From Lachnospiraceae bacterium (GTDB taxonomy: Bacteria; Bacillota; Clostridia; Lachnospirales; Lachnospiraceae): a DNA stretch of 44,438 bases. A program made the translations under genes and the position numbers. This document shows, piece after piece, positions 859 through 43,680 of the stretch. The number at the start of each line of letters is the position of its first letter. The first letter of the stretch is position 1. The notes beneath the pieces were generated by a model that did no database searches, was not told the origin of the DNA, and saw nothing but the letters and a program-made list of their open reading frames with translations. The stretch is from assembly GCA_017962105.1 (NCBI GenBank), contig JAGCVY010000011.1:1-44438 (forward strand). The letters are read 5' to 3'.

Positions 859-909
859 AGATTCCTCCGGACTGCCGCACAAAGCGGAAAATACAGTACT
901 CGCACTACC

Positions 910-937
910 ATTATAAAGCCTAATACGAGGATTGCAA
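910..937 (-). promoter_or_regulatory. Promoter of the degV-like gene
   Basis: On the minus strand, -35 TTGCAA (932-937) and a perfect -10 TATAAT (910-915) are separated by 16 bp, about 50 bp upstream of the start codon at 858. A CGGAAAAT word (885-892) lies in the 5' untranslated region. Confidence 0.65.
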
Positions 938-957
938 CAAGGCAATTTCTAATATTT

Positions 958-998
958 TTATAAACTCAACAGGCCGCCCCGTGTTGCCGGAGCGGCCC
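958..998 (-). terminator. Probable terminator after efp
   Basis: GC-rich inverted repeat (GGCCGCCCC at 972-980 with GGAGCGGCC at 989-997, one mismatch) just past the efp stop. On the minus strand it is followed by a weak T-containing stretch (TGTTGAGTTTAT). Confidence 0.5.
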
Positions 999-1028
999 AT
1001 ATTTGTCATACTGTTGACTGTCTGGTTG

Positions 1029-1586
1029 TCAGACGCGCTTCATGTACTCACCGGTACGGGTATCGATCTGGATAACCTCGCCCTCGTTAACGAAGAGCGG
1101 AACCAGAACCGTAGCGCCGGTCTCTACGATCGCGGGCTTGGTAGCACCCGTTGCGGTATCGCCCTTGAAGCCGGGCTCCGTGGAAGTGATCTCAAGCTCA
1201 ACGAACATCGGAGGCTCGATTGCGAACACCTGTCCCTGATGCGAAAGCATCTTGACCATCTCGTTCTCCTTGACAAACTTGAGAGCGTCGCCGACCTGCT
1301 CTGCGGTCATAGCGATCTGGTCAAAGGTCTCCGTGTTCATAAAGTTATACATATCGCCGTCTGCATAGAGATACTGCATGTCCAAACGCTCGATGTGCGC
1401 CTGCGGGAACTTCTCGGTAGGACGGAAGGTTCTCTCAACCACGCCGCCGTTCTTGATGTCCTTCAGCTTGGTACGCACGAAAGCTGCACCCTTGCCGGGC
1501 TTAACATGCTGGAACTCCACAACCTGATATACGGCGTTGTCAATCTCAAGAGTAACACCGTTTCTGAATTCGCCTGCTGATAACAT
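1029..1586 (-). CDS. efp: Translation elongation factor P
   Basis: A 185-residue EF-P of standard length with three beta-barrel domains. It relieves ribosome stalling at polyproline stretches. The domain I loop reads KPGKG, placing Lys32 at the tip that faces the peptidyl-transferase centre. The C-terminal signature runs through [13 protein letters not shown]. The start at 1586 has AAGGAGG about 10 bases upstream. It has its own promoter (1625-1653). The M24 peptidase gene lies upstream on the same strand, a very common neighbour of efp. I see no EF-P modification genes (epmA/epmB, ymfI) in the window. Confidence 0.98.
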
Positions 1587-1624
1587 ATAGGATAGTCCTC
1601 CTTACAAAAACTTCATCTCAATTA

Positions 1625-1653
1625 AGTTTATCCCATTTGCCGTAGATTTGCAA
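1625..1653 (-). promoter_or_regulatory. Promoter of efp
   Basis: Minus-strand -35 TTGCAA (1648-1653) and -10 TAAACT (1625-1630) with 17 bp spacing, about 40 bp upstream of the efp start codon. Confidence 0.6.
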
Positions 1654-1669
1654 CATTTTTTTATCGACG

Positions 1670-1696
1670 CGGAAAATGAAGCTGTCTCATTTTCCG
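1670..1696. repeat. Perfect inverted pair of the CGGAAAATGA word
   Basis: CGGAAAATGA (1670-1679) and its exact reverse complement (1687-1696) are separated by 7 bases. The right arm overlaps the stop codon of the M24 peptidase gene (GGA AAA TGA). The pair could form a 10-bp hairpin in the transcript, but no T-tract follows on either strand, so it is not a standard intrinsic terminator. This is the only perfect inverted pair of the window-wide word. Confidence 0.75.
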
Positions 1697-2766
1697 ATCG
1701 GAATCTCGATCAGTTCCTTAGGAGACTCCGCAAGATTCTCGCAGCCGTCCTCCGTCACAAGCACCAGATCCTCGATGCGGACGCCGCCGAAGCCCTCGAT
1801 GTAAATGCCCGGCTCCACCGTCATCATGCTGCCCGCCCGCACGATCTCCTCGCTGCGCGCATTGGAGTACGGAGGCTCGTGGATCTCGAGGCCCACGCTG
1901 TGGCCGAGGCCGTGGCCGAATTTGCCTTCGTAGCCGGCCTCGTTGATGATGGTTCTGGCAATTCCGTCGATCTCCTTACCCTTCATTCCGCCGCAGATCT
2001 GCTCAAGGACCGCCTTCTGCGCGCGGAGCACGGTCTCATAGACCTTGCGCTGCTCTGCGTCCGCCTGCCCGATCACGACGGTTCTGGTCATATCCGAGCA
2101 GTAGCCCTCATAGACGCACCCGAAGTCCAACGTCACGAAATCGCCCTCGCGAAGCGCTCTTGCGCTCGGCATGGCGTGGGGCATCGCCGAATTCTCACCC
2201 GACGCCACAATCGGCGGGAACGAGTTCCCCGATGCGCCTTCGAGGCACATGTAATAGGTCAGCTTTGCGGCGATCTCCAGCTCGGTGGCCCCCGGCCGGA
2301 GGTCGTTCATGATCTTGGAAAATGCGATGTCGCCGATGTGTTCCGCCTGACGAAGTTTTGCAACCTCCTCTGCGGTTTTTATTTTCCGCAGCTCCACAAG
2401 AACGTTGTCGACCGGAAGAAGTTCCGCTCCGCAGCGCTCCCGCATCGCCTCAAACTCATGATAGGTGGTGATATCGCGCTCAAAGGCCGCTTTCCCCGCA
2501 CCGTGTTCCGCGAGGATCCGGTTGATCTGCTCCGAGTAGGACGAACCCGCGACATCCAAAACGTCGCACCCCTTCGCCTCCTCCTTCGCCTGAAGAAGGA
2601 ACCGGAAATCCGTGATCAGCCCTGCGTAGCTGTCCTTTGTGAGCACCAGCACTCCGGTGTCGTTGGTGTATCCCGTCAGATACCGGATATTGGCGATATC
2701 CCTCACGATCATCGCATCCGCCCCGAGTTCCGCAAGAACCGGCAGCACTCTATCCCAAGCAATCAT
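1687..2766 (-). CDS. M24 family Xaa-Pro aminopeptidase/dipeptidase
   Basis: A 359-residue pita-bread metallopeptidase that removes residues next to proline. The N-terminal creatinase-like domain covers about residues 1-125 and the catalytic domain the rest. All five metal ligands are visible: Asp214 (DFGCVYEG), Asp225 (SDMTRT), His289 (HGLGHSVG), Glu318 (VEPGIYI) and Glu332 (RIEDLV). No signal peptide, so cytoplasmic. The start at 2766 has TAGGAGG 8 bases upstream. It follows aroQ by 18 bases and is probably co-transcribed with it. The last codons, GGA AAA TGA, coincide with a CGGAAAATGA word that forms an inverted pair with one just downstream. PepP and PepQ cannot be told apart here. Confidence 0.93.
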   Translation of the reverse strand: MIAWDRVLPVLAELGADAMIVRDIANIRYLTGYTNDTGVLVLTKDSYAGLITDFRFLLQAKEEAKGCDVLDVAGSSYSEQINRILAEHGAGKAAFERDITTYHEFEAMRERCGAELLPVDNVLVELRKIKTAEEVAKLRQAEHIGDIAFSKIMNDLRPGATELEIAAKLTYYMCLEGASGNSFPPIVASGENSAMPHAMPSARALREGDFVTLDFGCVYEGYCSDMTRTVVIGQADAEQRKVYETVLRAQKAVLEQICGGMKGKEIDGIARTIINEAGYEGKFGHGLGHSVGLEIHEPPYSNARSEEIVRAGSMMTVEPGIYIEGFGGVRIEDLVLVTEDGCENLAESPKELIEIPIGK

Positions 2767-2784
2767 GCCTGTGCCTCCTAACGC

Positions 2785-3276: not shown

Positions 3277-3338
3277 GAATTCTCCTCCTTCAGGTTCGCC
3301 CGGTTCAGCTGCGGGCGTATCAAAATCTGCGTGTAACT

Positions 3339-3367: not shown

Positions 3368-3386
3368 GCCGTTTCTGTCCTGTCGG

Positions 3387-4418: not shown

Positions 4419-4479
4419 AAAAGCCAGTCATCCGCGCGATCCAAAAGCCGCGCGAACCCCTTCTGTAATATACGGACAC

Positions 4480-6723: not shown

Positions 6724-6752
6724 ATTTTACCAATTTTCCGAGGAATAATCAA
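6724..6752 (-). promoter_or_regulatory. Promoter of the EF-G-like gene, with the repeated word in its spacer
   Basis: Minus-strand -35 TTGATT (6747-6752) and -10 TAAAAT (6724-6729), spacing 17 bp. The spacer contains CGGAAAAT (6733-6740). Confidence 0.65.
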
Positions 6753-6808
6753 TTCTTTTTTGTACGTTTTTCGCAAAAAGTGGTCTGTATTTTCCGAAAA
6801 ATGACGAC

Positions 6809-6894: not shown

Positions 6895-8850
6895 TTACTT
6901 GGGCTCTCCGTCAAGTCCGAGGTGCTTGCACAGTACGTCAAAGCTGGCCGGACCGATCTCAAGGAACGCCTGATACGCTTCCTTCTCCGTCATGCCCTTC
7001 TTCATCAGCGAATCGATGATATCCAGACTCTGGAAATGGCTAAAGGTGTAAGGCAGATACACTGCGGGATCCGATGTGACCGCGTCGAAGACAAGGTCCA
7101 CAAGGCTGGTGCCGCTTCCGAGGAGCGTGGTGCTGAGATACTTCTTGACCTGAGCCTTATCCCAGTTCATGTAGTTCACGCCGATGTCGCAGATTGCGAC
7201 AACGCTGTTGGAGTAGGTGTAATCAAGGTCGAAGAAGAAGGCAAGGTTCGGGTCATCCGGCATCGCCCAATTGTATGCGTTCTTACCCATCATCGTCGCC
7301 CAGCCTTCCATGTAACCGGTGTAATTCAGCACGGAGCTGATCTCATGCCAGTTTTCGGAATGGCGGAAGTATTCATCCTGATACAGATGTCCCGGATATC
7401 CCTCGTGAGCAAGGGTCGAGAACAGCTCGATATCGCTCTTTTCGCTCTTGGGATTCACACGGATTATCTTGCGGTCCGGATTGTCGATCTGCGGTGTCAT
7501 GAAGTACGCCAGCACGCCCTCGACACAGAGCTCATCCGGAAGTGCGGATACAATATACTTTGTATCGCGGATCTTCGGGTAATTCTCCGCCGTCAGTTTC
7601 TTCAACCGGTCAAGGATCACATTGAAATCCCTGGTGCCGTACATCACTTCATCGTAACGGTTGAAAATGCCGCCGTCCTGCTGATATATCTTTACGAACT
7701 CGGACGCCATCTCCGTGGTCTTGCGATCCAGGTAATTGTACATTTCGTTGACGGTAAGCTCGGATCCGGTCTTGCTCTGGGCAAGGTATGCGTAATAGTT
7801 CGCACCGCCCTCGCGGGAAGCCAGTCCCTTCGCCTCGGAGATATAGCTCTCAAGCGTCTTCACGTTGTCGCGCAGCTTCTCCGCAGCGGGGATCAGGCTG
7901 TCGGTGAGCACCTTCTCAAGCTCTGCGGCGTATTTCTGCACGGTGGCATCGTCAAAGCCGTAGCCGGCAGCGTTGGAGCGGAACGCGGAGAGAATGATAT
8001 TTTCCGAAGGCTGTTTGCACAGCGTTTCGATGTTCTCCATGGTGGTATCGTACATCTCCTGCGTCGGGCATGCGCCGTTCTCGCAGAGCTGCTTCATCAA
8101 TGCAAACAGGGAATCCAGATAATCGGCAACGGCAGCTACATCCTTCATGTAATCCGCCATATCCTTCTCTTCCACGAACGGATACTCGGTGAGGATCGTC
8201 AGAAGAGAATCGACGGCATTGCCGTTCTCCGCCATCAGATAGTTGTTGACGGACTTGATGTCGATGTCCTTGTAGCGGCGCGTCAGGTTCAGTTCGTAGA
8301 CCAGACGGTCATAGTAGATCTTCTGTTTGTCCGTCAGATGGTCGTAGTTGAACTGATCGAAGCCCTCAAAATACTCCTCAAACTCCTCGGCGGCCTTCTT
8401 CATATCAAACTCTTCGTCAGTGATGACAAACTCCGTCTCGATCCCGTATTTCTCGGGATGCTCGATCGAAAAATGTACCATCACATGGTCGGTTCCCGTC
8501 ATCTCAATGAACATGTCGTTCAAAAAGTCATCAAATGCCTTCTGCTCTTCTTCAACGGAGCCGAACCGGCCCGAAGGCGTGGGCGTCGGCGTTGCCGGCA
8601 CGTCAGTGATCTCAGGAGTCGGCGTTGCCGGCGTATCCGTGGGTTCCGGAGTCGGCGTACCGGGCTCCTCCGTGGGCTTCGGCTCGTCGGTAGGCGTCGT
8701 CTCGCCCGGAGTCGGCGTCTCGGTCGCCGCCGTGGTATTGGTATTGTTTTTCTTCGTGCGCTCCTGAAGGCCCGAGTTTCCGCAACCGGTCAACAGAACG
8801 GCAACGAGCAGCAGGCACAGGAGTCTGCGCATCAGATTCCTCTTTTTCAT
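6895..8850 (-). CDS. DUF885 family lipoprotein, putative zinc metallopeptidase
   Basis: A 651-residue exported lipoprotein. Residues 1-23 are a lipoprotein signal peptide ending in LLTGC (lipidated Cys23). Residues about 30-95 are a Pro/Thr/Glu linker, and the rest is a DUF885 domain. LAHEGYPGHLYQ is the DUF885 HExxxxH-type motif thought to bind metal. A surface peptidase or amidase is likely; the substrate is unknown. The first ATG has AAAGGA at a long 14-base spacing. The ATG six codons in (8832) has GAGGA at about 5 bases and still leaves a complete signal peptide, so it may be the real start. Monocistronic: promoter at 8945-8973, terminator at 6809-6864, divergent from the HTH gene at 9091. 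Confidence 0.88.
   Translation of the reverse strand: MKKRNLMRRLLCLLLVAVLLTGCGNSGLQERTKKNNTNTTAATETPTPGETTPTDEPKPTEEPGTPTPEPTDTPATPTPEITDVPATPTPTPSGRFGSVEEEQKAFDDFLNDMFIEMTGTDHVMVHFSIEHPEKYGIETEFVITDEEFDMKKAAEEFEEYFEGFDQFNYDHLTDKQKIYYDRLVYELNLTRRYKDIDIKSVNNYLMAENGNAVDSLLTILTEYPFVEEKDMADYMKDVAAVADYLDSLFALMKQLCENGACPTQEMYDTTMENIETLCKQPSENIILSAFRSNAAGYGFDDATVQKYAAELEKVLTDSLIPAAEKLRDNVKTLESYISEAKGLASREGGANYYAYLAQSKTGSELTVNEMYNYLDRKTTEMASEFVKIYQQDGGIFNRYDEVMYGTRDFNVILDRLKKLTAENYPKIRDTKYIVSALPDELCVEGVLAYFMTPQIDNPDRKIIRVNPKSEKSDIELFSTLAHEGYPGHLYQDEYFRHSENWHEISSVLNYTGYMEGWATMMGKNAYNWAMPDDPNLAFFFDLDYTYSNSVVAICDIGVNYMNWDKAQVKKYLSTTLLGSGTSLVDLVFDAVTSDPAVYLPYTFSHFQSLDIIDSLMKKGMTEKEAYQAFLEIGPASFDVLCKHLGLDGEPK
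8575..8745 (-). repeat. Degenerate Pro/Thr codon repeats in the DUF885 linker
   Basis: Imperfect tandem units such as GGAGTCGGCGT and GTTGCCGGC encode TPTPE/PATPTP-like repeats (about residues 36-92). Such linkers hold exported domains away from the membrane. Repeat number may vary between strains. Confidence 0.7.
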
Positions 8851-11562: not shown

Positions 11563-11645
11563 GTACTGCTCCTTTCTCTGCACAAGGCAGAACTTGTCGT
11601 TCGTGTCAACATAAGGCGGGAATTCGCAACCCTCGCTTAGCGCGC

Positions 11646-11892
11646 AAAAAAGCCCCTGTTGACACACCGAAGTGTATCAACAGGGACGAATAATTCGCGG
11701 TTCCACCCTGCTTGGCCGAAGGCCCACTCAATTATGACGGTAACGGTGTCACCGGACCGGATTGGGGTCACTCGGGAGACGGTCTTCCGCACGGTTTCCG
11801 CCGGACGCTCTCAGCCTGCTTTCGCGTGCGTCCTTCTCTGTTCGTCAACCCGGAGTGCGTACTGCTTTCTCCTTCATCGTTTTGTAACTGTT
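11646..11892 (-). promoter_or_regulatory. T-box riboswitch leader of thrS
   Basis: Read on the minus strand. The diagnostic T-box sequence AGGGTGGAACCGCG is at 11696-11709. It precedes a terminator hairpin (stem around 11652-11686, then TTTTTT at 11646-11651). Stem I begins with the AGTA element near 11859-11862; CACTC-GGG and CCC-GAGTG can pair to close it, and GGACGC/GCGTCC forms a distal helix. Two ACC (Thr) triplets lie in the region expected to hold the specifier; I cannot decide between them. Uncharged tRNA-Thr should favour the antiterminator and switch thrS on (established T-box mechanism). Confidence 0.92.
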
Positions 11893-11926: not shown

Positions 11927-11967
11927 GCGGAAAATCAGAGGTATCCGCCCTTTGCCTCCGGAAGAGC

Positions 11968-12244: not shown

Positions 12245-15200
12245 ATGAAAACACTGTTTACCGACAACTTCCGTTTCCGCAAATTCCCCATCGACACGGC
12301 GGAGTCTGCCATTCTCTCGGCAGTTCATGACGGCACAGGCTTTACGCCTGTCGACATCCCCCACGATTTTCTGATCGGGCAGGTTACCGACCTCTACGAG
12401 ACCTGCATCGGCTGCTATGTTCGTCCGCTCTCCTATGACGGAAAGGCATCCCATGTCTTCCTGCAATTTGACGGCGTCTACATGGATTCCCGGTTTTATA
12501 TCAATGATATGTTAGTACATACCCGGTCTTATGGGTATTCGCAAACTTTTTTTGAAATTACACCGTATCTCCGGCCCGGCGACAACATCCTCGTGGTGAC
12601 ATGCCGCTACGAATCGCCGAACACGCGCTGGTACTCCGGCGCCGGCATCTACCGAAACTGTTATCTTCATAAAACCGGCGACGCCTACCTTCCGGCAAAC
12701 GGCATCTACGCTGTCGCGACGCCCGTGTGCGAGGCCCGCGATGGATCCGGCGTTTTCCGAGGGAAAAGTCTTCTCTCCGTCGACGCGGAGGTTGTTTTAG
12801 GACCGTATGAACAGGCACTTCTCCGCCACATGCTCCGGGACTCTTCGGGTTTGGTTGTTGCTTCGTCGGAAAATGTCGTGTCCGTGTCTTCCGAGTCCCT
12901 TGTTTCTACGCAGGTGCTCATGGTTGAGGATGCTCGAGCTTGGGACATCGACTCTCCGTATCTTTACGAGCTTACAACGGAACTTCTTGTTCCTACGGAA
13001 AGCACTGCAGATTACCTGTCTGTCGATTCCTACACCCAGCGCATCGGCTTCCGCTCCGTACGGCTCGACCCTGATAACGGGTTCTTTCTAAACGGGCGCC
13101 ACATAAAGCTCCACGGTGCCTGCATGCACCACGACCTCGGAGCGCTTGGTGCCGCAGTTAACAAAACCGCAACCAGGCGGCAGCTTCTCTCCCTTCAGGC
13201 GATGGGCGTGAATGCCGTCCGCACTTCCCACAACATGCCTTCCGTGGAGTTTATGGATCTCTGTGACGAACTGGGAATCCTCGTGGACTCCGAGGCGTTT
13301 GACATGTGGGAACTCCACAAGACCGAGCACGACTATGCAACGTTCTTCAAGGACCATTGGAAAGAGGATGTCGCCTCCTGGATCCGCCGGGACCGCAACC
13401 GCCCTTCGGTCTTCTTCTGGAGCATCGGAAACGAAATCTACGACACCCACACCGAGCGCGGACTGATCGTCACACGCGAACTTCGGGATGAAGTCCGCCG
13501 CCACGATTACCGTCATCACGCCTTCACGACCATCGGCTCCAACTATGTGGCCTGGGAGGGCGCGCAGCGGTGCTCCGATCTGTTGGAGGCCTCCGGGTAC
13601 AATTATCTGGAGCGCATTTACGGTGAGCACCATGAAAAGTATCCGCACTGGTGCATCTACGGAAGCGAGACGTCGTCCACGGTACAAAGCCGGGGAATCT
13701 ATCATTTTCCGGCGGATGTGAGGCTTCTGACCTTTGCGGACGGTCAGTGCTCCTCCCTCTCCAACTGTTCCACCAACTGGGGCGCCAAGGACCCGACGGT
13801 CGTGATCACGGGGGACCGCGACGTTCCCTACAGCCTCGGCCAGTTCATCTGGACCGGCTGGGATTACATAGGCGAGCCCACGCCCTACCACTCAAAAAAT
13901 TCCTTCTTCGGCCAGTGCGACACCGCCGGCTTCCCGAAGGACTCCTACTACATCTATCAGGCCGGCTGGACCGATCCGGAGACACACCCTATGGTGCATA
14001 TCGTGCCGTACTGGGACTTTAATGTCGGTCAGATGATCGATGTGCAGGTCTTCTCCAACTGTCCGAAGGTGGAGCTGTTCTTCCGGGCGGAAAATGCCCC
14101 CCGGCTCTCCCTCGGAACCCGGGACATCGACCCCGTGAACGGGAAGACGCTGCACGGTGCATGGCGCATCCCCTATCAGCCCGGAGAGCTCACCGCAGCG
14201 GCTTACGACGCCGCCGGAAATCTTGTCGCAACGGATTCGCAGCGCTCCTTCGGAGACCCCGCCTCCATCGTTCTCGAGCCCGACAAGACAATGATGACCG
14301 CGGACGGCGAGGACATGATCTTCGTGTCCGTCTCCACGGTTGATGTGGAAGGAACTTTCGTCGCAAACGCCCGCAACCGCATGAATGTCACGGTGAGCGG
14401 CGCTGCCCGCCTTGTTGGCACGGACAACGGCGACAGCACCGACTACGACGAATATAAAGGCACCTCCCGAAGACTCTTCTCCGGAAGGCTTCTTCTGATG
14501 CTCGCGGCACGAAAGGAACCGGGTGAGATTATTGTGACGGTCTCCTCCGCAGGACTGCCTGACGCGGAGCTGCGGCTGATTGCAGAAGAATCTGCCGCGC
14601 CGGTGGATCCCGCTGTCTGTGCATCCGCAGCCAATGTGCCCCGCATCACAGACGAAGCCGTCATCAATGAGGTCCCGATCCGCAAGATTGAACTCACGCT
14701 GCAGGACGGTGGCCCGGTACTGACTCCCGACCGTCGGGAAATAACGGTATCTGCCGATATTCTTCCCGCAAACGCGACATTTACGGAGCTTACATTCCGT
14801 GTGATGACCGCGGACGGCATCGACTCCGCGGCAATCCGGGTCACGCCTTTGCCTGACGGACGTTCGGCAAGGATCACGGCGCTCGGCGATGAGGAGCGAT
14901 GCTTTCTGTACGCACTGGCCGACAACGGCAAGCCCCATGCCGATGTGATCTCAAGTCTCGAGCTGTGCAGCACCGGGCTTGGCAGGGCAACTACAGACCC
15001 CTATGAGTTTGTCAACGCCATCCGATATGACGCCAGCAATCAAAAGCCCACGCTCAGCTTCGACGGCGGCGCTTTCACCGCGGACGAGCCCACGTGGGTA
15101 CGGTTTGACAATGTGGATTTCGGCGAATACGGCTCCGACACGATCACACTCCCGATCTTCTCCTTCTCCGACGTGGTGCCGGTGGAAGTCTGGGAGGGCA

Positions 15201-16954: not shown

Positions 16955-17001
16955 ACATCGGAAAATATGGTTTTCGTTGCTTTTTACAACTACTGGTTGT
17001 T

Positions 17002-17073: not shown

Positions 17074-17283
17074 TCATTCCTCCGGCTTGTACTCCATCAG
17101 ATCCCCGGGCTGACAATCCAGCACTTTACAGATTGCCTCCAGGGTCTCAAAGCGAATGCCCTTCATTTTCCCCGTCTTTAAGTTTGAGAGGTTCACGTTG
17201 GTCATGCCGACCTTCTCCGCCAGCTCGTTCAGGGACATTTTCCGATCCGCCATCATGCGGTCCAGTCTTATGATAATTCCCAT
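17074..17283 (-). CDS. Small XRE (YozG-type) HTH regulator
   Basis: A 69-residue protein made almost entirely of one Cro/CI-type helix-turn-helix (SLNELAEKVGMTNVNLSNLK, then TLEAICKVLDCQPGDLMEY). These minimal regulators are typically encoded next to DUF2975 membrane proteins, as here: the DUF2975 gene ends 55 bases upstream on the same strand and the two share a promoter. The membrane partner may control the regulator's activity, but that is inference. Arg14-Lys15-Met16 are encoded by a CGGAAAATG word. Confidence 0.92.
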   Translation of the reverse strand: MGIIIRLDRMMADRKMSLNELAEKVGMTNVNLSNLKTGKMKGIRFETLEAICKVLDCQPGDLMEYKPEE

Positions 17284-26947: not shown

Positions 26948-27164
26948 GTTCTATCCTCCCTGTTTTCAAAAATCTTCAGCACGGCGTCCTTCACGCATTC
27001 CGATCCCGTAAAGAATACCCTCTATTTCTGAGCAATAATACTGTTATGAACTATTGTAATCCGCATCCTCCTGTAATAATATGTACATAACCAACTGCAT
27101 TTATGTATCTTTCCGACCTATTTCAGGCGGAAAATGCTCTTTTTCCCGTTTACGGAGGTCCGCA

Positions 27165-28025: not shown

Positions 28026-28955
28026 TCACAGCATAAGCCTTTCCTGCAGATCAATCCAGGAATGCTGCGGCACCTCATGCACCTGATCCCCTTCCGTGGA
28101 ATTCCCGATCAGAAACGGAGATTTCGGATCGTGTAGCTTGTTTTGCGCGATCACCACCGCCGGGTCCGCATTCGCATAGCAGTACCGGCACAGATGAAGG
28201 CATGTGTTGTAAGCGCCGATATCGCAGGACAGGTAGCAGGCGCACTCGGCTCTCGCTCCCTTCCTTTTCGGCGCGATCAAACGCTTACCGATGGCCTTCT
28301 CATAGTCGCGGATCGTCATACAGCCGCTGCAGTCGGCTCCGAACGATGCCAGTTCGTCCCCTTCCGCGCACGTTTTGACGGTCATCCCGCACTCCGACGC
28401 GATCCCGATCATCTCCTGCCCGAGTTGCAGCCTGTCTGCTTTTGCTACCTCCCTCGCCTCCGGAAAATTCTTCCTGACCTTCGGGTAAAGATCGATAAAA
28501 CTGATCACGACCGTCTTTGTATATCCCTTCAGTCTTTCCGCGATCTGCCGGAATGCGTGAAGCTGATACTCCTTTGTGTACCGCTCCGACAGGAAGATCG
28601 GATCATAGCGCCAGGCAATGGCATCTGTGCCTACCATGCCGGACAACGTTTGGAAATCCTCGATCAGCTTCTGTTTGTCAGGGACATTCGGTTCGATGTC
28701 GCGCCCGTAGGATGTCAGCGTGACAAACCAGTATTGCCCGAAATCCCTGAGCAGATTCATATACGGAAACATGGGCGCCGGATTTTTGGTGCAGAAACCG
28801 ATCACGTCGACCACATCCGGGGCAAGCCTGTACTTGCTCACCTGACTTGGGTTGTAAGGATTTCGAACGCAGACAAAACCCTCTTTGACCCTATTGGCAA
28901 ACCATTCCGCGTAAAATGCTGGGATGTCGGTTCTTTGTCCTGTGTTGATGATCAT
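28026..28955 (-). CDS. DUF1848 family protein with a Cys-rich C-terminus
   Basis: A 309-residue protein of the uncharacterised DUF1848 family, full length. The N-terminal part (INTGQRTDIPAFY...WFANRV, FCTKNP, FVTLTSYG) carries the family landmarks. Three Cys clusters follow: CAEGD..DCSGCM, ECACYLSCDIG and NTCLHLCRYCYAN; the last resembles the CxxxCxxC iron-sulfur ligands of radical SAM enzymes in spacing and surroundings. An Fe-S redox or radical role is inference. The ATG at 28955 (AAAGGA at 6 bases) is preferred over 28979. The start codon itself lies inside a CGGAAAATG word (28953-28961). Confidence 0.85.
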   Translation of the reverse strand: MIINTGQRTDIPAFYAEWFANRVKEGFVCVRNPYNPSQVSKYRLAPDVVDVIGFCTKNPAPMFPYMNLLRDFGQYWFVTLTSYGRDIEPNVPDKQKLIEDFQTLSGMVGTDAIAWRYDPIFLSERYTKEYQLHAFRQIAERLKGYTKTVVISFIDLYPKVRKNFPEAREVAKADRLQLGQEMIGIASECGMTVKTCAEGDELASFGADCSGCMTIRDYEKAIGKRLIAPKRKGARAECACYLSCDIGAYNTCLHLCRYCYANADPAVVIAQNKLHDPKSPFLIGNSTEGDQVHEVPQHSWIDLQERLML

Positions 28956-29020
28956 TTTCCGTCCTTTCAAAACATGCACGGCAACCCTTCGCCCGGGCAG
29001 CGATCACGGTTTCCCGACCA

Positions 29021-34242: not shown

Positions 34243-36012
34243 TCACATCCGATCGGGTGCTTCAAATGCAAGCATTCCGATCCCGTCCTTGAAGATGGCA
34301 AGTGCCGTCCGCAGGATGGAAATCCATTCTTTCTGTTTCGCAGTGTCGGTCTCACCGACAATCTTATTCGCATGGTAGAACCCGTTCACGCCGTCTGCCA
34401 GCTCGTACAGATACTGGCATACCTTGTGAGGCGCAAGTTCCGCTGCGGCTTTTTCCACCATATCCGCAAAGCGGCCGATGGTAAGAAGAAGCGCTGTCTC
34501 CTCGGTTCCCCGCTCGTAGGTACCAGCCCGCTCCGGCATCTCGGGAAGCTCTCCGAGCTTCGCCAGGATGGATTTGATACGCACCATCGTGTACAGGATG
34601 TACGGACCGGTGTTGCCCTCGAACGAAGTGAACCGCTCGATATCAAAGATGTAATCCTTCGACGCCTGATTGGAAAGGTCGCCGTACTTGAGAGCGGCAA
34701 GCCCGACCTTGTGGGCAATATCCCGCTTCTCTTCCTCCGGAAAATCGCGATCCGCCATCTTCCGCATGACCTCTTCCGCCACGTTCTCGATCAGAACCTC
34801 GAGGCGCATCACACCGCCCTCGCGGGTTTTGAACGGCTTGCCGTCCTGACCGTTCATCGTACCGTTCCCGATGAAGGTAAGGATCGTCTCCGGCTTCACC
34901 AGCTTTGTCTTGCGGGCGCAGCGGAAAATCTGATCAAAGTACAGATCCTGCCGCTTGTCAACAACATAGATGATCTGATCCGGCGAGTAGAGCTTCATGC
35001 GCTCCACGATCGTCGCAAGGTCGGTTGTGTTGTAAAGCGTCGCACCGTCGGACTTCAGGATCATGCAGGGAGGCACTTCCTTGGTGTCCGTCTCTTCCTT
35101 GACATCCACGACAAGCGCGCCTTCGCTGATGTGGGCGTAACCGCCCTCCTTCATATCCCGGATCATGTCGGGGATATACTTCTGTGCGTCGCTCTCCTTG
35201 CCCCAGATATCAAACTGTGTGCCGAGATTTTCGTAATTTTTCTTCAGGTCCTCCATCGAAACACGCATGATGTGTTCCCAGAGAGCCATATAGCCTCTGC
35301 GTCCCTGCTGCAGCTCAAGGATAGCCTTGCGGGATTCCTCCCGGTAGTCGTCGTGTTCCTTCGACCACTTGCTCGCATAAGGGTAGATTTCTTCCAACTC
35401 GGAGACGGTAAACGGAGGTTCCTTCGGATACTCTCCCGTATAGTCGGGATCGAAGTATACCAGATCCGGTTTTCTTACCTTCAGTTCGGTGATGATCAGT
35501 CCGATCGGGGTCCCCCAGTCGCCGAGATGCGCATCGCCGATCACCTTGTGTCCGACGTACCGCAGGATGCGCTTCACCGATTCACCGATGACTGCCGGAC
35601 GCATATGTCCGACGTGCAGCGGCTTGGCGACATTCGCTCCGCCGTAGTCGATGACCACCGTGCGGGGGGTCTCCGCCGGCTCCACACCGAAGTGCTCCTC
35701 GCGGCTCATCCGCAATGCATAATCCGCAAGGAATTCCGTCTTTACATTGATGTTGATGAATCCCGGTGCAACAGCCTCGCAGGTTGCGATCATATCCTGA
35801 GCTCCTACTGCCGCAACGATCTCACCGGCAATTGCGATCGGTGCTTTGTGATACTGCTTGGCCGCAGCCATCGCACCGTTGCACTGGTACTGGCACAGGT
35901 CCGGGCGGTTCGATACCGTCACCGTTCCGTAGCGCCTTTCATATCCGCAGGAAACCACGGCGTCGCCGATGATTTCCTCCAACAGTGTTATAATTTTCTT
36001 CACTTTTTCCAC
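34243..36012 (-). CDS. argS: Arginyl-tRNA synthetase
   Basis: A 589-residue class I synthetase charging tRNA-Arg. Seen: N-terminal Add-1 domain, the HIGH-type motif in KPLHVGHMR, the GDAHLGDWGTPIGLI segment, KTREGGVMRLEVLI in the region of the second catalytic motif, and the anticodon-binding domain containing YGDLSNQ and ending in GIGMLAFEAPDRM. The start at 36012 is a GTG with AGGTGA almost touching it. A second GTG at 36003 is better spaced and gives the same protein minus three residues. A good promoter is at 36056-36084, divergent from the aspartate kinase. No T-box is visible in the short leader. Confidence 0.96.
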   Translation of the reverse strand: MEKVKKIITLLEEIIGDAVVSCGYERRYGTVTVSNRPDLCQYQCNGAMAAAKQYHKAPIAIAGEIVAAVGAQDMIATCEAVAPGFININVKTEFLADYALRMSREEHFGVEPAETPRTVVIDYGGANVAKPLHVGHMRPAVIGESVKRILRYVGHKVIGDAHLGDWGTPIGLIITELKVRKPDLVYFDPDYTGEYPKEPPFTVSELEEIYPYASKWSKEHDDYREESRKAILELQQGRRGYMALWEHIMRVSMEDLKKNYENLGTQFDIWGKESDAQKYIPDMIRDMKEGGYAHISEGALVVDVKEETDTKEVPPCMILKSDGATLYNTTDLATIVERMKLYSPDQIIYVVDKRQDLYFDQIFRCARKTKLVKPETILTFIGNGTMNGQDGKPFKTREGGVMRLEVLIENVAEEVMRKMADRDFPEEEKRDIAHKVGLAALKYGDLSNQASKDYIFDIERFTSFEGNTGPYILYTMVRIKSILAKLGELPEMPERAGTYERGTEETALLLTIGRFADMVEKAAAELAPHKVCQYLYELADGVNGFYHANKIVGETDTAKQKEWISILRTALAIFKDGIGMLAFEAPDRM

Positions 36013-36208: not shown

Positions 36209-37531
36209 ATGATCAAGGTTGTTAAGTTCGGCGGCAGTTCTCTTGCCAGCGCCGAGCAATTCCGCAAAGTTAAAGACATTATTCTCTCCGACCCGGATCG
36301 TCGCTTTGTCGTTCCGTCAGCGCCCGGAAAGCGCGACAGCTCCGACACGAAGGTGACGGACATGCTCTATCAATGCTATGCCATTGCCGAGCAGGGCGGG
36401 GATTTTACCGACGCGCTTGCCAAGATCCGCGAGCGTTATCAGGAAATCATCGACGGTCTTTCGCTGACGGTTTCCCTCGAATCCGAGTTTGCCGTGATCC
36501 GCGAGAACTTTGCCGCTAAGGCAGGCCGCGACTATGCAGCCTCCCGCGGGGAATACCTCAACGGTATCCTTCTCGCAAACTATCTCGGCTTCGAATTCCT
36601 CGATTCCGCCCGCTATATCCGCTTCCTGCCGGACGGCACCTACGATGCCGCCGCCACACAGGAGCTGTTGTCGAAGGGCCTCTCGGGCCTTTCCAACGCC
36701 GTGATCCCCGGATTTTACGGCGCCTATGCGGACGGCCGCGTAAAGACGTTCTCCCGCGGCGGTTCCGACATCACCGGTTCCATCGTGGCACGCGCCGTGC
36801 ACGCCAACCTCTACGAGAACTGGACCGATGTCTCCGGTTTCCTTGTAGCGGATCCCCGCATCGTCAAGAACCCGAAGGTCATCGAGACCATCACCTACCG
36901 GGAGCTCCGCGAGCTCTCGTACATGGGCGCAGGCGTGCTTCACGAGGATGCAATCTTCCCTGTCCGTACCGCAGGCATCCCGATCAACATCAAAAACACC
37001 AACGCGCCGGAGGATGAAGGCACGTTCATCGTGGAAAACACCTCCCGCAAGCCGGCGTTTGTGATCACCGGTATCGCCGGCAAGAAGGGCTTCACGGCGA
37101 TCAACATTGAAAAAGACATGATGAACACCGAGATCGGTTTCGGCCGCAAAGCCCTGCAGGCCTTCGAGGACAACGGCATCAGCTTCGAGCATATGCCCTC
37201 CGGTATTGACACGCTCTCCGTCTTCGTTCATCAGCATGAGTTCGAGGAGAAGGAGCAGGCGATTCTCGCAGAGATCCACAAACTCTGCAATCCCGATTTC
37301 ATCGACATCTCCACGGACCTTGCGCTCATCGCTGTCGTGGGCCGCGGCATGAAGTCCAACCACGGTACCGCAGCCAAGATTTTCCGCGGACTCGATAACG
37401 CCGGTGTCAACATCCGAATGATCGACCAGGGCTCCAGCGAGCTCAACATCATCATCGGCGTTGCAAGCAAAGACTTCGAGACTGCCGTCAACGCGATCTA
37501 TCAGGCGTTTGTTCCGAAGGATGCGGAGTAA
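36209..37531 (+). CDS. lysC: Aspartate kinase
   Basis: A 440-residue aspartokinase making beta-aspartyl phosphate, the entry to lysine, methionine and threonine synthesis. Seen: N-terminal KFGGSSLA, the FSRGGSDITGS substrate region, DPRIV, the VLHEDAIFPV stretch, and two C-terminal ACT domains (about 300-440) with VGRGMKSNHGTAAKIF and INIRMIDQGSSELNI-type segments (the gene reads VNIRMIDQGSSE). The ACT pair predicts feedback inhibition by an end product. The ATG at 36209 has GAGGT 6 bases upstream; the frame is open further but without support. The isozyme (lysC or another aspartokinase) cannot be fixed. It stands alone between argS and the cyclophilin. Confidence 0.94.
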   Translation: MIKVVKFGGSSLASAEQFRKVKDIILSDPDRRFVVPSAPGKRDSSDTKVTDMLYQCYAIAEQGGDFTDALAKIRERYQEIIDGLSLTVSLESEFAVIRENFAAKAGRDYAASRGEYLNGILLANYLGFEFLDSARYIRFLPDGTYDAAATQELLSKGLSGLSNAVIPGFYGAYADGRVKTFSRGGSDITGSIVARAVHANLYENWTDVSGFLVADPRIVKNPKVIETITYRELRELSYMGAGVLHEDAIFPVRTAGIPINIKNTNAPEDEGTFIVENTSRKPAFVITGIAGKKGFTAINIEKDMMNTEIGFGRKALQAFEDNGISFEHMPSGIDTLSVFVHQHEFEEKEQAILAEIHKLCNPDFIDISTDLALIAVVGRGMKSNHGTAAKIFRGLDNAGVNIRMIDQGSSELNIIIGVASKDFETAVNAIYQAFVPKDAE

Positions 37532-38175: not shown

Positions 38176-39393
38176 ATGAAGATTGCAGGAATCATAGCGG
38201 AATACAATCCGTTCCACAACGGACATCGGTATCACATTGAACAGACACGGCGTCGCACTGGTTGCGATGCCGTTGTTGTAGTGATGAGCGGAGATTTTGT
38301 ACAGCGGGGCGTTCCGGCGGTCACCGACCGTTTCTTACGCGCCGAAGCCGCCCTTCGCTGCGGTGCCGATGTCGTACTGGAACTGCCGGTGTACGGTGCC
38401 ACCGCAAGCGCAGAGGATTTTGCCTCCGCGGGGATCCGCGCACTCACCGCGCTCTCCTGTGTGGACATTGTCTCCTACGGTGCGGAGGATGCGACAGGCG
38501 TTGACGGGTGCAATACATTTCGGGAGACCGCGCAGTTTCTCCTCGACGACCCGGAGGATTTCCACTCCGCGCTTCTCTCCCATGTCCGTGAAGGCAACTC
38601 CTATGCCAAGGCACGTTCCCTCGCACTCTCGGAATTCCGCCCCGAAGCCGCGGAACTTCTCTCCAAGCCCAACAACATTCTTGCGGTGGAGTATGAGAAG
38701 GCGATCCTGGCAAGCGGCAGCAAGCTGTCGACCTGTGCCATCCCACGCTCCGACCGGGGCTACCATGACACAGCCGTTGACGAGCTCTGTTCCGCCACAG
38801 CGATCCGGGAATCTCTTTCCGCGGAAGGACGGATCCCGGCCGTGGCCGTCCCGGAGGAAGCCTCTGCGCTCTACGCTTCTCTCAACGCGGAAAATGCCGT
38901 TTCTGCGGACGATTTCAGCGACATGCTCTTCGCGGAGCTCTCTGCGCACACAACGGCGTCCCTGTCCGCCCTCTACGACATTCCCGAGGACCTTGCCAAC
39001 AGGATCCTTGAAGCGGCGAAACGTCCCTTTACCTGGACGTCCCTTGCCGAATCCGTCAAATGCAAAGCCTACACCAGAACCCGGATTGACCGGGCACTGT
39101 GCCACACCCTGCTCCGGTTGACCCGGAAGGATTCCGACATTTTCCGAAAAGAGCTCCCTTATCTCCGGGTGCTCGGGTTCCGCAGGGATGCAGAGGATCT
39201 GATCGCGGAGATGGAAAAATCCTCCAAGGTTCCGCTGCTTGTACGGTTCCTTCGCGACTCCGCAATGCTTTCGGGCGACGCCGAACGATTCATTTCAACG
39301 GATCTTCGGGCGAGCGCCCTCTACTCCCAGGTTTTGTATCGCAAGGCCGGGATTCTCCGGGAGGATGCTCGCAGGCGCCTGCTGACCGTATAA
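38176..39393 (+). CDS. tmcAL: tRNA(Met) cytidine acetate ligase (YlbM family)
   Basis: A 405-residue nucleotidyltransferase-fold protein. It has the YlbM/TmcAL opening GIIAEYNPFHNGH (HxGH-type nucleotide site), then VMSGDFVQRG and the SNKPN-like segment LSKPNNILAVEYEKAI. TmcAL makes N4-acetylcytidine at the wobble position of elongator tRNA-Met from acetate and ATP (established for the family). The ATG at 38176 fits the family N-terminus; an ATG at 38158 adds six residues. Neither has a convincing ribosome site. The neighbourhood (coaD, rsmD and a coiled-coil protein on the opposite strand, separated by a two-way terminator) is a common arrangement in Clostridia. Confidence 0.92.
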   Translation: MKIAGIIAEYNPFHNGHRYHIEQTRRRTGCDAVVVVMSGDFVQRGVPAVTDRFLRAEAALRCGADVVLELPVYGATASAEDFASAGIRALTALSCVDIVSYGAEDATGVDGCNTFRETAQFLLDDPEDFHSALLSHVREGNSYAKARSLALSEFRPEAAELLSKPNNILAVEYEKAILASGSKLSTCAIPRSDRGYHDTAVDELCSATAIRESLSAEGRIPAVAVPEEASALYASLNAENAVSADDFSDMLFAELSAHTTASLSALYDIPEDLANRILEAAKRPFTWTSLAESVKCKAYTRTRIDRALCHTLLRLTRKDSDIFRKELPYLRVLGFRRDAEDLIAEMEKSSKVPLLVRFLRDSAMLSGDAERFISTDLRASALYSQVLYRKAGILREDARRRLLTV

Positions 39394-40110: not shown

Positions 40111-40602
40111 TCAATTCTCCTTTGGCTTATACAATTTCTGATACACATCCTCTACGACTTCACTGGGCACAAACTGTCTGATATCGCCGCCGTAGCTCGC
40201 GATCTCCTTTACAATGCTCGAGCTTAAGTACGAATACTCCACGCTCGTCGTCAAAAAGATCGTATCGACCTCCGGGTTCAGTTTATGGTTCAACTGCGCG
40301 ATCTGCAGTTCGTACTCAAAATCGGTTACCGCCCGAAGTCCTCTCACCAGTACATTCGCATTCTGTTCCCTGGCGAAATCCACGGTCAATCCGGAAAATG
40401 ACATCACTTCCACGTTGGGGATATCTCTTGTCACCTTGCGGATCAGTTCCAGCCGTTCCTCCACGGAAAATGCCGGCTTCTTCGCGTTGTTGTTCAACAC
40501 CGCAATGATCAGTTTCTTGGTAATGCGGGAAGCTCTCTTGATAATATCCAGATGCCCGAGTGTGATCGGGTCAAAGCTTCCTGCGTAGATTCCTACCTTC
40601 AT
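40111..40602 (-). CDS. coaD: Phosphopantetheine adenylyltransferase
   Basis: A 163-residue enzyme for the penultimate step of CoA synthesis (4'-phosphopantetheine + ATP to dephospho-CoA). The hexameric PPAT landmarks are complete: [14 protein letters not shown] (the TxGH nucleotide site), [13 protein letters not shown], and the C-terminal [13 protein letters not shown] with the ISSTxxR-like position. GGGAGA lies upstream of the ATG. It follows rsmD by 33 bases, the classic rsmD-coaD pair, and precedes the coiled-coil gene with a 2-base gap. Two CGGAAAATG words (40392, 40464) fall in this short gene, 72 bp apart. Confidence 0.97.
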
Positions 40603-40635
40603 CTCTCGGGCTCTCCCTCTGACAACGTTCTCATA

Positions 40636-41202: not shown

Positions 41203-41271
41203 ATCCGTCCTCCGAACATCGAGTTTTGATGGGCATTTTCCGACCGAAACGCCGTAAAATAACCATTTATT

Positions 41272-41301
41272 ATTATAGCCTAACGAGCCCGTGCTTGTCA
41301 A
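41272..41301 (-). promoter_or_regulatory. Consensus promoter of the rsmD-coaD operon
   Basis: Minus-strand perfect -35 TTGACA (41296-41301) and perfect -10 TATAAT (41272-41277), spacing 18 bp. A CGGAAAATG word (41234-41242) lies in the 5' untranslated region. Confidence 0.8.
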
Positions 41302-41311
41302 CGCAAAATCT

Positions 41312-42184
41312 TTATTTCAAAGGCATTGCCGCCTCGATCCTGGCCACCGCTCCGTCGAGTTCGCGAACCGAAAGCTGCTCGGCGAGTCCCATGTCCACAA
41401 CCTTTGCGGCATCCGGGTCGATCGGAAGCTTCGCAAGCACCGGGATCTCATGATGAGCAGCCACTTCCTCGATCCTGCTCTCGCCGAACACGGCATGCTT
41501 CCCGCCGCAGTCGGGGCAGGTGAAATAGCTGTAGTTTTCCACGATCCCGAGGATCGGGACGTTCATCATCTTTGCCATGTTGACGGCCTTCGCCACCACC
41601 ATGGACACAAGGTCCTGGGGGCTTGTGACAATCACGATGCCGTCCACCGGAAGGGACTGGAATACCGTGAGCGGAACGTCGCCGGTTCCGGGCGGCATAT
41701 CCACGAACATGTAGTCCACATCGCCCCAGCACACATCGGTCCAGAACTGCTTGACCGTTCCCGCGATCACGGGGCCTCTCCAGATGACCGGTGCCTCCTC
41801 CTCGTCAAGGAGCAGGTTGATGCTCATCACGCGGATGCCCTTGCTGCTCGTCACAGGCCAGATCCCGTCATCGTTTCCGCGGGCAGGTCCCTTGACGCCG
41901 AGGGATTTCGGGATGGAAGGACCGGTGATGTCCGCATCCAGGATCGCACACTGATATCCCTTGTTCTGCAGCATGACAGCGAGATTGACGGTCACGAAGG
42001 ATTTGCCGACGCCGCCCTTTCCGCTGACCACGCCGATCACCTTCTTCACGCGGCTGTTCTTGTTGGCTGCCGCCTGAAAATCCTGCGGCTTCGACTCTCT
42101 GCTGCTGCAGTTTGCGCTGCAGGTGGAGCAATCGTGGGTGCACTCGCTCTCCGGTGCATTGGTGTTGTTTATTTCTTCGCTCAT
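41312..42184 (-). CDS. Mrp/NBP35-type iron-sulfur cluster carrier ATPase
   Basis: A 290-residue P-loop ATPase of the Mrp/ApbC/NBP35 group, which carries Fe-S clusters to target proteins. Deviant Walker A GKGGVGKS, DADITGPSIPKSLG and DMPPGTGD are all present. It has a C-terminal CPDC pair (CxxC, cluster site shared by dimers) and an N-terminal Cys set (Cys15, 19, 22 and 26 in ECTHDCSTCSANC), a feature of NBP35-like members. The ATG at 42184 has CGGAGG upstream; the frame extends to 42352 without support and overlaps the neighbouring gene's 3' end. Last gene of a probable operon with the small membrane protein and DHH genes. Confidence 0.93.
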   Translation of the reverse strand: MSEEINNTNAPESECTHDCSTCSANCSSRESKPQDFQAAANKNSRVKKVIGVVSGKGGVGKSFVTVNLAVMLQNKGYQCAILDADITGPSIPKSLGVKGPARGNDDGIWPVTSSKGIRVMSINLLLDEEEAPVIWRGPVIAGTVKQFWTDVCWGDVDYMFVDMPPGTGDVPLTVFQSLPVDGIVIVTSPQDLVSMVVAKAVNMAKMMNVPILGIVENYSYFTCPDCGGKHAVFGESRIEEVAAHHEIPVLAKLPIDPDAAKVVDMGLAEQLSVRELDGAVARIEAAMPLK

Positions 42185-42251
42185 GATACCTCCGTTGCCG
42201 CAACAGGCGGCGTTCTGTCTGTTTTTCTTCTTTGTCTTTCCACCGGAACCC

Positions 42252-42662
42252 TTATTGTTCCGTCTTTGTGTTTCCGAAATCATCCTCCGGATACGTCTCG
42301 CGATACCCTTCTTCCTTCTTCTGCTCCTCGCTTCTCCGGAGCAGCTCGTCATACTGCTCGTACATCTTCTGCACGCCGTTTTCCAGAAGGTAATAGTGCA
42401 TGATGTACGGCACCAAAAGGATCAGAAGCGCTCCGAACAGAAGGAGCATCGGGATTCCCGGGTCCGCCACGCAGTACAGCGCAACAGCGACGGACAGGAG
42501 AGCGAACAGCACCGTCACGATCAGGTGGACCATCCGTTCGTGCATGAAAAAGCCGATCTGCACGAGGTGCTTTTTCACCTCGTCCTCGTAATTCACCGCG
42601 ATAGGCGGATGCTTTAACAGCTGATCGATCTTCTCAAGATATGCAAGGATCCGTTTTTTCAT
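42252..42662 (-). CDS. Small two-TM membrane protein
   Basis: A 136-residue protein of unrecognised family. A soluble N-terminus (MKKRILAYLEKIDQLLKHPP) is followed by two transmembrane helices (about 44-64 and 70-92: LIVTVLFALLSVAVALYCVA and IPMLLLFGALLILLVPYIMH) and a charged C-terminal tail (YEQYDELLRRSEEQKK). Both ends are probably cytoplasmic. GGAGG lies 5 bases before the ATG, and the gene begins 16 bases after the DHH gene's stop, so they are co-transcribed. No function can be assigned. Confidence 0.82.
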   Translation of the reverse strand: MKKRILAYLEKIDQLLKHPPIAVNYEDEVKKHLVQIGFFMHERMVHLIVTVLFALLSVAVALYCVADPGIPMLLLFGALLILLVPYIMHYYLLENGVQKMYEQYDELLRRSEEQKKEEGYRETYPEDDFGNTKTEQ

Positions 42663-42678
42663 TGCCGCCTCCTATACC

Positions 42679-43680
42679 TTAAACCTCAGCGTTCACCGGA
42701 AGCCCGTTCCGAACCTTCATCAGAGCGTCGCCGAAGCGCATGCGGATCGCCGTGTTCGGGTCGCTGCCGAGCTCTCCGATTCTCTCTTTGTACAACAGTC
42801 CTCCGGCCATGGTCGCGTGCCCGCCGCCGTTTCCGATGCCGCGCAGCGCGTAGTTTACCAGCTGACCGGCGTTGATGGTGGGAACTTCCGAGCGCACGGA
42901 AAATTTCATTCCTCCGTTGCGGTCGGCGTACACCACCGCAAGAGTCACGGCGTCGAGGGCCAGGATAAAGTTCGAAACGCTGGCGATCAACCCGTCCGGG
43001 CAGTCAAAGGGGATGTGGACAAAACCGATGCCGTCGTACACAACAATGTTCTGGATCGCGGCACCGTACGCCCTCAGGTCGGAGATCTGCAGGCTGTTGT
43101 TCTCCAGGCGGCCGATCACATCGTGGTTGGCAATCCGGTGGAGCTTGGAAAATGCTTTCAGGTCATCCTCGGTCACGCCCGCGCACAGGTTTCTTGTATC
43201 CATCTTGATCCCGTACAGAAGCGCCGTCGCTACCATGGGCGGGATTTCCTCGCCGAGCTTCTCATAGAGCTGCGTCACAATGGTCGCGCAGGCGCCCACA
43301 AGCTTGTGGATCACAATGTCGTACTTCTCTTTCGTCACCCAGGGATGATGGTCAATACAGACCCGCTCCTCGCCGCGCATATCGGTGAGGTTGGAATTGT
43401 TCTTCTGGACGTCGACGTTGATGACAACCGCGTCCTCGGCGATAGCAGCCATCCGCTCCGGGGACATGGTCCGGATCTCGAACTCGTCCATCATCATGCG
43501 GATATTGACCTTGTCGATCGTTCCGAAGTAGCCGATCTCCGCATCGATCCCGCGTCTGCGCAAAAGCTCCTGCAGACCGAAGGCGGACGACAGCGCGTCC
43601 GGGTCGGGATAGTCATGGGTCTGGATGCAGACGACATGGTCCTTTGCAATGCGCAACAGCTCTTCAAATTGTTTCTTCAT
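42679..43680 (-). CDS. DHH/DHHA1 phosphoesterase (NrnA-like)
   Basis: A 333-residue phosphoesterase. Manganese-site motifs: THDYPDPDA (21-29), INVD (near 87-90) and DHHP (110-113). The C-terminal DHHA1 domain has GNGGGHATMAGG. NrnA-type enzymes degrade nanoRNAs, pAp and sometimes cyclic dinucleotide products; there are no membrane or GGDEF parts, so it is not GdpP. The ATG at 43680 has GGTGA 4 bases upstream; a TTG at 43698 is a weaker option. First gene of the operon with the small membrane protein and Mrp ATPase, from the promoter at 43818-43846. Confidence 0.9.
   Translation of the reverse strand: MKKQFEELLRIAKDHVVCIQTHDYPDPDALSSAFGLQELLRRRGIDAEIGYFGTIDKVNIRMMMDEFEIRTMSPERMAAIAEDAVVINVDVQKNNSNLTDMRGEERVCIDHHPWVTKEKYDIVIHKLVGACATIVTQLYEKLGEEIPPMVATALLYGIKMDTRNLCAGVTEDDLKAFSKLHRIANHDVIGRLENNSLQISDLRAYGAAIQNIVVYDGIGFVHIPFDCPDGLIASVSNFILALDAVTLAVVYADRNGGMKFSVRSEVPTINAGQLVNYALRGIGNGGGHATMAGGLLYKERIGELGSDPNTAIRMRFGDALMKVRNGLPVNAEV

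Follow-up and report, generated by a model that had tools for sequence, protein, structure and literature searches.

The 44,438 nucleotides (nt) analysed here, referred to as the window, come from contig JAGCVY010000011.1 of assembly GCA_017962105.1, a Lachnospiraceae bacterium whose genome (2,587,466 bases on 105 contigs) we label G000. A short DNA word, CGGAAAAT, occurs in the window as thirty-two exact copies, sixteen on each strand. Dinucleotide shuffles of the window gave a mean of 2.59 copies and a maximum of 6, with 0 of 100 shuffles reaching 32, and when the window's 8-mers are scored with an order-3 Markov model, CGGAAAAT comes first. A nine-letter extension, CGGAAAATG, accounts for sixteen of the copies against 1.3 expected under the same model. 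An earlier reading of the window by eye (the sequence-only reading) had counted about 31 copies of CGGAAAAT, divided 16:15 between the strands, with 15 of them extended. Our counts agree closely with these figures, though its expectation of about one copy was lower than the 2.59 given by the shuffles.

Simple gene calls, which underlie all the labels given here for the window, place four of the thirty-two copies outside genes, not eight as had been proposed. These are CGGAAAATG at 1670..1678 (+) and CGGAAAAT at 6789..6796 (-), 11928..11935 (+), and 16959..16966 (+). The first of them forms an inverted pair with CGGAAAATG at 1688..1696 (-), which lies at the 3' end of a gene, as does CGGAAAAT at 23013..23020 (-). 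Two copies fall near gene starts (CGGAAAAT at 6733..6740 (-), where the gene is a predicted one, and CGGAAAATG at 28953..28961 (-)), and CGGAAAATG at 17236..17244 (-) is in a short predicted gene. All other copies are within genes. For CGGAAAATG, these are at 12867..12875, 14088..14096, 20575..20583, 23223..23231, 27128..27136, 38888..38896, 40392..40400, and 40464..40472 on the plus strand and at 13703..13711, 26615..26623, 39138..39146, and 41234..41242 on the minus strand. For CGGAAAAT, they are at 885..892, 28461..28468, 34738..34745, 34922..34929, and 42897..42904 (+) and at 2381..2388, 7999..8006, 19078..19085, 20027..20034, 23668..23675, and 37379..37386 (-).

Abundance and placement of the word

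The abundance extends to the whole genome. G000 contains 1060 copies of CGGAAAATG (537 forward and 523 reverse), while the same word read backwards, used as a control, occurs only eight times (5 + 3). A sample of 409,688 bases from G000 holds 286 copies of CGGAAAAT, of which 234 are in predicted genes, 51 are intergenic, and one lies at an edge. This corresponds to about one copy per 1.4 kb, with intergenic density roughly twice that within genes (51 in 38,233 bases versus 234 in 372,099). The hyper-abundance claimed by the sequence-only reading is therefore confirmed, and is stronger than first noted; genome-wide counts near expectation would have spoken against it. The DNA uptake sequences (DUS) and uptake signal sequences (USS) of naturally competent bacteria are likewise words of 8–12 bp that recur about once per kb, well in excess of expectation.

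Codon usage does not explain these copies. When synonymous codons were shuffled within the genes of the 409,688-base sample, 28.2 copies of CGGAAAAT were retained, compared with the 234 real ones. Each of the six frames exceeded its shuffles (observed/shuffled of 24/5.8, 62/4.7, and 21/4.4 on the gene strand and 22/3.7, 38/6.3, and 67/3.5 on the opposite strand), so a codon or codon-pair artefact can be ruled out. The sequence-only reading had argued as much, and enrichment confined to a single frame, which would have undone its argument, was not what we found.

Fitting a motif to 430 kb of sequence returned about 637 sites with the consensus CGGAAAAT[G/A][C/T] and a weak upstream T. The flanks of the word carry almost no information, which rules out an extended repeat element, and the word is not palindromic. 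Single-letter variants of CGGAAAATG were compared with a background model in which copies of the word had been masked, and they are over-represented at some positions only. At position 1, T is enriched 9.7-fold, A 4.7-fold, and G 2.5-fold; at position 3, A is enriched 10.5-fold and T 7.6-fold; at position 4, C is enriched 3.7-fold; and variants at position 9 are enriched 2.9 to 5.6-fold. Variants at positions 2 and 5–7 reach no more than 1.8-fold, close to expectation or under it, and those at position 8 are about 3-fold below expectation.

We looked for a leading-strand bias of the kind shown by Chi or by KOPS (FtsK-orienting polar sequences), using GC skew to assign strand type, and did not see one. 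The totals for CGGAAAAT were 87 versus 88 copies, summed over the seven contig pieces whose GC skew was clear, and the 9-mer in G000 gave 78:73. The strand balance noted in the window thus holds with respect to replication as well, as the sequence-only reading had supposed in arguing against a polarised signal. DUS and USS are likewise unpolarised and found in all reading frames.

Copies are also spread more evenly than random placement would produce. The coefficient of variation of the gaps is 0.84, compared with 0.99±0.057 for random placement. The thirty-nine 10-kb tiles hold a mean of 6.87 copies with a variance of 3.54, none of them is empty, and there is no regional clustering across eight contig pieces (chi-square p 0.49). 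Fourteen of 278 neighbour gaps are shorter than 60 bp; eleven of these fourteen join copies in opposite orientation, and five of those eleven are intergenic.

Conservation, dialects, and distribution among relatives

To measure conservation, we used all permutations of the word's own letters as controls. In an alignment of orthologous sequence with the congener G010 (104.6 kb, 76.7% identity), 25 of 46 words were kept exactly, as opposed to 475 of 2572 control words, or about three times the retention of the controls. The alignment with G001 kept 0 of 1 word, and those with G017 and G006 contained no words. A second set of alignments, made without controls, kept 23/48 words for G010, 3/10 for G014, 2/6 for G019, 2/6 for G016, 1/9 for G018, 0/1 for G006, and 0/1 for G124. 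The evidence for excess conservation therefore comes from G010.

We then counted CGGAAAATG in forty-one genomes, consisting of G000, twenty-one congeners, three other members of the family, and sixteen of the order. Counts for the congeners run from 63 to 1042, so that within the genus they grade almost continuously from 63 to 1060. Copy numbers are 58, 88, and 168 in the three family members and 4 to 78 in those of the order. A wider survey covered 150 genera of the family, with one genome each, sampled from a larger group. There CGGAAAATG stands out in its own genus (about 410 per Mb), in G124 (401 copies, 160 per Mb), and in G140 (337 copies, 116 per Mb); the next-highest genus, G141, has about 64 per Mb (191 in 3.0 Mb).

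The words of these related groups share a skeleton, GG..AATG, with a spelling that differs by group. Group A uses CGGAAAATG and group B (G016 and G018) uses CGG[C/A]AAATG. In G124 the word is GGNCAATG, with 1142 forward and 1160 reverse copies genome-wide (2302 in 2.5 Mb; control 81 + 81), the highest count of this word among the 150 genera. The G140 word is GG[A/G]AAATG, often preceded by A. This last dialect is based on word counts, as motif fits by expectation maximization for G140, G006, and G017 drifted to codon periodicity and were not used.

A gapped form of the skeleton, GGNNAATG, captures these dialects together. We ranked all of the roughly 4096 words of the form abNNcdef in fourteen genomes, and GGNNAATG came first or second in eight of them (G000, G010, G014, G019, G016, G018, G124, and G140). 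Among the lower-ranked genomes, with ranks counted from 0, its positions were 15 in G162, 57 in G123, 87 in G118, 336 in G006, 1106 in G024, and 1686 in G017. Synonymous shuffling, applied to ten of the fourteen (all except G019, G118, G162, and G123), gave genic ratios of 2.1 for G000, 2.3 for G010, 2.0 for G014, 1.7 for both G016 and G018, 3.8 for G124, and 3.0 for G140, compared with 1.0 for G006, 0.9 for G017, and 1.2 for G024. By strand type, the tight dialect words are balanced at 46:48 in G016, 41:34 in G018 (GGMAAATG), and 77:91 in G124. A word or dialect common to related species is a further property of DUS and USS that we observe here, with group C (G006, G015, and G017) lacking it.

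We also sought an alternative dialect in G024 and in two congeners with low counts, G006 and G017, and found none; their top words are weak or come from small repeat families. One such family is dispersed around GCAGTGCGATCC in G017, with about twelve copies in 140 kb. A separate palindrome, CCTCGAGG, occurs 20 times in 40 kb of G123 when both strands are counted together (10 places), where 3.2 would be expected on that basis, and is possibly a different over-abundant word belonging to that genus. Little or no enrichment of GGNNAATG was found in G015 and G023, where the samples were small (18–40 kb) and mostly from around the pilus operon.

We built a tree from PilB and PilT for twenty-one genomes (917 columns), rooted on G027; G003, G009, G012, G020, and G021 are not included. 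As a tree of two pilus proteins, it should not be taken for a species tree. The genus (support 1.00) groups with G124 and G140 (0.85 for the pair), apart from G023 and G027. Within the genus, groups A and B each have a support of 1.00, G011 is an early branch, and the wordless group C is also a clade (1.00). Read simply, the mark would predate the genus, would have been respelled several times, and would have been lost in group C; alternatively, it may have been gained repeatedly.

Pilus and competence genes

The sequence-only reading had pointed to competence genes as the place to look for support, and G000 carries ComEC, a ComEA-like protein, PilB, PilT, PilC, a prepilin peptidase, and five pilins. 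ComEC scores above the TIGR00361 cut-off. Three genes separate it from the ComEA-like protein, which is above the cut-off for the TIGR00426 repeat model and below that for the full-length TIGR01259. The pilus operon runs in the order pilB, pilT (above the TIGR01420 cut-off), pilC, two pilins, the prepilin peptidase, pilM, a gene in the pilO position, a third pilin, a long gene in the pilX position, and then two more pilins. The names pilO and pilX reflect position, as Pfam assigned neither gene to a family above cut-off. No secretin was found among the operon genes scanned in G000, which suggests a single-membrane cell. This genome thus combines a type IV pilus with DNA translocation genes, as known DUS and USS systems do. 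A second gene of the T2SSE family, of PilT size, lies outside the pilus operon on G000:C6 (locus L150:6113-7171, minus strand).

The same operon is present in the fetched genomes of groups A, B, and C. Pilins matching PF07963 number five in 15 of the 22 genomes of the genus, fourteen in G011, and one in G003; the fourteen matches suggest a second pilus system in G011. ComEC family members were found in 38 of the 41 genomes. Across the family, a PF07963 pilin occurs in 70 of 150 genera, and the pilus is compatible with the word without being diagnostic of it, because pilins are common among wordless genera. G124 has PilB and PilT, and carries two sets of pilus genes with eight pilins. The ComEC match is in two pieces in G015 (G015:C63:17001-32000) and in G016 (G016:C57:45001-62000), with stop codons in the latter. 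Competence may be decaying in these two genomes, or the breaks may be assembly errors. The second pilin of G006 has 70 mature residues, while its relatives have about 130.

Among the pilins, we looked for a candidate receptor. The first resembles major pilins, and of the five in G000 (the only genome for which pilins 2–5 were scanned in Pfam) it alone touches ComP_DUS, below cut-off. The fourth is basic more regularly than the others, with a positive net charge after the first helix in sixteen of seventeen genomes and a charge of 0 in G005. It weakly matches GspH in 17/17 and ComGD in 13/17, with G000 far below both cut-offs. FimT, a member of the GspH/FimT family, is described as binding DNA in Legionella (PMC8897410), and for this reason we name the fourth pilin as the first receptor candidate, by inference only. 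Wordless group C has the fourth pilin too, and there it is likewise basic.

Readings of the word

We consider it likely, from the pattern in these genomes, that CGGAAAAT is the core of a DUS/USS-like DNA uptake sequence, a putative mark of self scattered over the chromosome. This is the reading that had been cautiously preferred at the outset, and it is supported by the genome-wide abundance of the word, its balance between strands, its regular spacing, its retention in G010, the variant spectrum and, above all, the dialects, which fit it better than the alternatives named alongside it. Under this reading, a type IV pilin or another receptor in the envelope would bind double-stranded DNA carrying [C/T]GG..AATG[C/T]. 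The pilus would be retracted by PilT, the DNA held by ComEA, and one strand passed inward by ComEC for recombination. If marked DNA were preferentially taken up, recombination would keep re-seeding marked alleles, and copies would build up evenly along the genome, whatever the strand or frame. A change of receptor would give rise to a lineage's dialect, and a loss of specificity would let the word decay, as may have happened in group C. Biased uptake, a receptor, and drive are what we infer; the model predicts about one mark per kb on both strands and in all frames, spread evenly, with tolerated variants, dialects that follow the phylogeny, and decay wherever a line loses specificity.

We also lean towards a broader claim, that a Clostridia-type lineage is the third in which sequence-specific self-DNA uptake evolved. 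Its ancestral mark would have been [C/T]GG..AATG[C/T], with at least four dialects, a loss in one clade of the genus, and a type IV pilin as receptor, perhaps the basic GspH/FimT-like one.

The closest parallels are with the two proteobacterial families for which uptake sequences have been described so far. The Neisseriaceae have eight DUS dialects, all built on a CTG core (PMC3630211). Both systems have a short, strand-balanced word at about one copy per kb, dialects with a common core (CTG there, GG..AATG here), and type IV pili. Unlike neisserial DUS, GCCGTCTGAA with its CTG core, the consensus here is unrelated and belongs to a different phylum, where it is known from sequence. The USS core of the Pasteurellaceae is AAGTGCGGT, and our consensus is unrelated to it or to its known dialect. 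The likeness to USS is instead in general form, with a short core, about 1000 copies, divergent dialects, and over-represented single mismatches (PMC12616744, PMC1852404, PMC1939737). A receptor proposed for USS is ComN/PpdA (PMC12616744). Unlike Pasteurellaceae, for which a bias of copies towards gene ends is described (PMC2346458), we looked for such a bias and did not see one. The monoderm Com pilus (ComGC-ComGG) also combines a pilus with ComEA and ComEC, and the fourth pilin weakly matches its ComGD; the machinery here differs in being an operon with PilB, PilT, and PilM.

Several observations weigh against an uptake sequence. Close pairs of words are not in excess (18 gaps under 100 bp, compared with 18.8 for random placement), and words are no scarcer in codon-atypical genes. 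Conservation was not clearly above controls in the small samples from G014 (3/9 words kept; controls 142/532) and G002 (0/8; controls 66/324). GGNNAATG showed little or no enrichment in G001, G002, G004, G005, G007, G008, and G011, again in 18–40 kb samples mostly from around the pilus operon, and in G018 this loose form is skewed 89:55 by strand type, in contrast to its tighter GGMAAATG.

The match between word and machinery is also imperfect. Five word-bearing congeners (G009, G012, G013, G020, and G021) have no PF07963 match. Of these, G009, G012, G020, and G021 also lack a complete PilB-like match, and G003 has a partial one. The five genomes are 79–91% complete, so these absences may reflect missing sequence. 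Word-bearing G140 likewise has no PF07963 match, with PilB and PilT present, and ComEC is in two pieces in word-bearing G016. Conversely, wordless group C retains the pilus operon, with an unbroken ComEC match in G006 and G017, and among the seventy pilin-bearing genera the two words counted are conspicuous only in the word's own genus and in G124. ComP_DUS, the model of the neisserial receptor, was matched by only two of seventeen first pilins (E 0.01), and its best score was 21.7 bits, in G000, against a cut-off of 27.3. The first pilin is thus unsupported as a ComP orthologue, which is a further difference from neisserial DUS.

We weighed the word against other classes of abundant sequence. 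The Chi site of Escherichia coli is GCTGGTGG, and Chi-type words are short, dense, favoured in core genes and, in model species, strand-polarised. A Chi-like recombination signal, read by AddAB or RecBCD and kept dense for chromosome protection or repair, would fit the density of the word and its conservation in G010, and a change in AddAB could respell it between lineages. Such a signal should nevertheless follow replication, and neither the word in G000 nor its tight dialects showed a strand bias relative to GC skew. Spelling that varies within one genus, and absence from one of its clades, would moreover be fast for a repair enzyme, and we regard this explanation as unlikely. The same speed of respelling would be unexpected if the word were bound by an abundant protein of the nucleoid, of chromosome segregation, or of transcription. 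Even spacing, the lack of empty tiles, and the doubled intergenic density are all compatible with a site of that kind; the location of 234 of 286 copies in genes and in every frame, the lack of regional clustering, the non-palindromic form, the lineage dialects, and the absence of the word from group C speak against one, and make it quite improbable.

Abundance alone is no proof of function, and the word could in principle have arisen through biased mutation or gene conversion, or through a modification system, and play no part in recognition. To our knowledge the HIP1 octamer of cyanobacteria, a hyper-abundant palindrome, is still unexplained; the word here is also hyper-abundant, but it is non-palindromic and has dialects. 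The gradation of counts within the genus resembles slow accumulation or decay, as such a bias would produce. The tolerance of variants at particular positions, and the retention of GG..AATG while the middle letters change, resemble recognition instead, and restriction-modification tends to deplete words, not enrich them. We think it very doubtful that the word arose in this way. A main role in terminator hairpins is also unsupported, given that close pairs are no commoner than in random placement and that only one of fifty-one intergenic copies lies between convergent genes. In this the word differs from Neisseria and Haemophilus; many neisserial terminators are described as containing DUS, and terminators formed from uptake words occur in both Neisseria and the Pasteurellaceae (PMC1852404).

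If the word is indeed an uptake sequence, natural transformation and barriers to gene flow would be implied in a large and mostly uncultured group of bacteria. An independent case with dialects would also allow a comparative test of how such marks originate, by uptake bias and drive or by selection for recombining with kin. In the accessible portions of two recent accounts, uptake is called sequence-independent in almost all competent species besides Haemophilus, with Neisseria as an outlier (PMC12040237, 2025), and sequence-independent elsewhere, monoderms included (PMC12153270, 2025). A screen of Veillonella, as reported in the available text, found no word of at least 10 bp with at least 100 copies and left shorter words open (PMC5397411). 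Our search of titles and abstracts, which most subscription papers fell outside, returned none reporting an uptake sequence in Firmicutes, Clostridia, Lachnospiraceae, or Gram-positives, and among the papers listed for the word itself none was relevant.

One gene of the window has an unusual history of its own. The threonyl-tRNA synthetase at 9751-11667 (-) is 95% identical to that of G007 and 78–84% identical to that of G011, and only 48–50% identical to those of the other thirteen congeners examined. It is up to 83% identical to a sequence from a rumen metagenome-assembled genome titled Lachnospiraceae, and by these identities it looks like a transferred copy.

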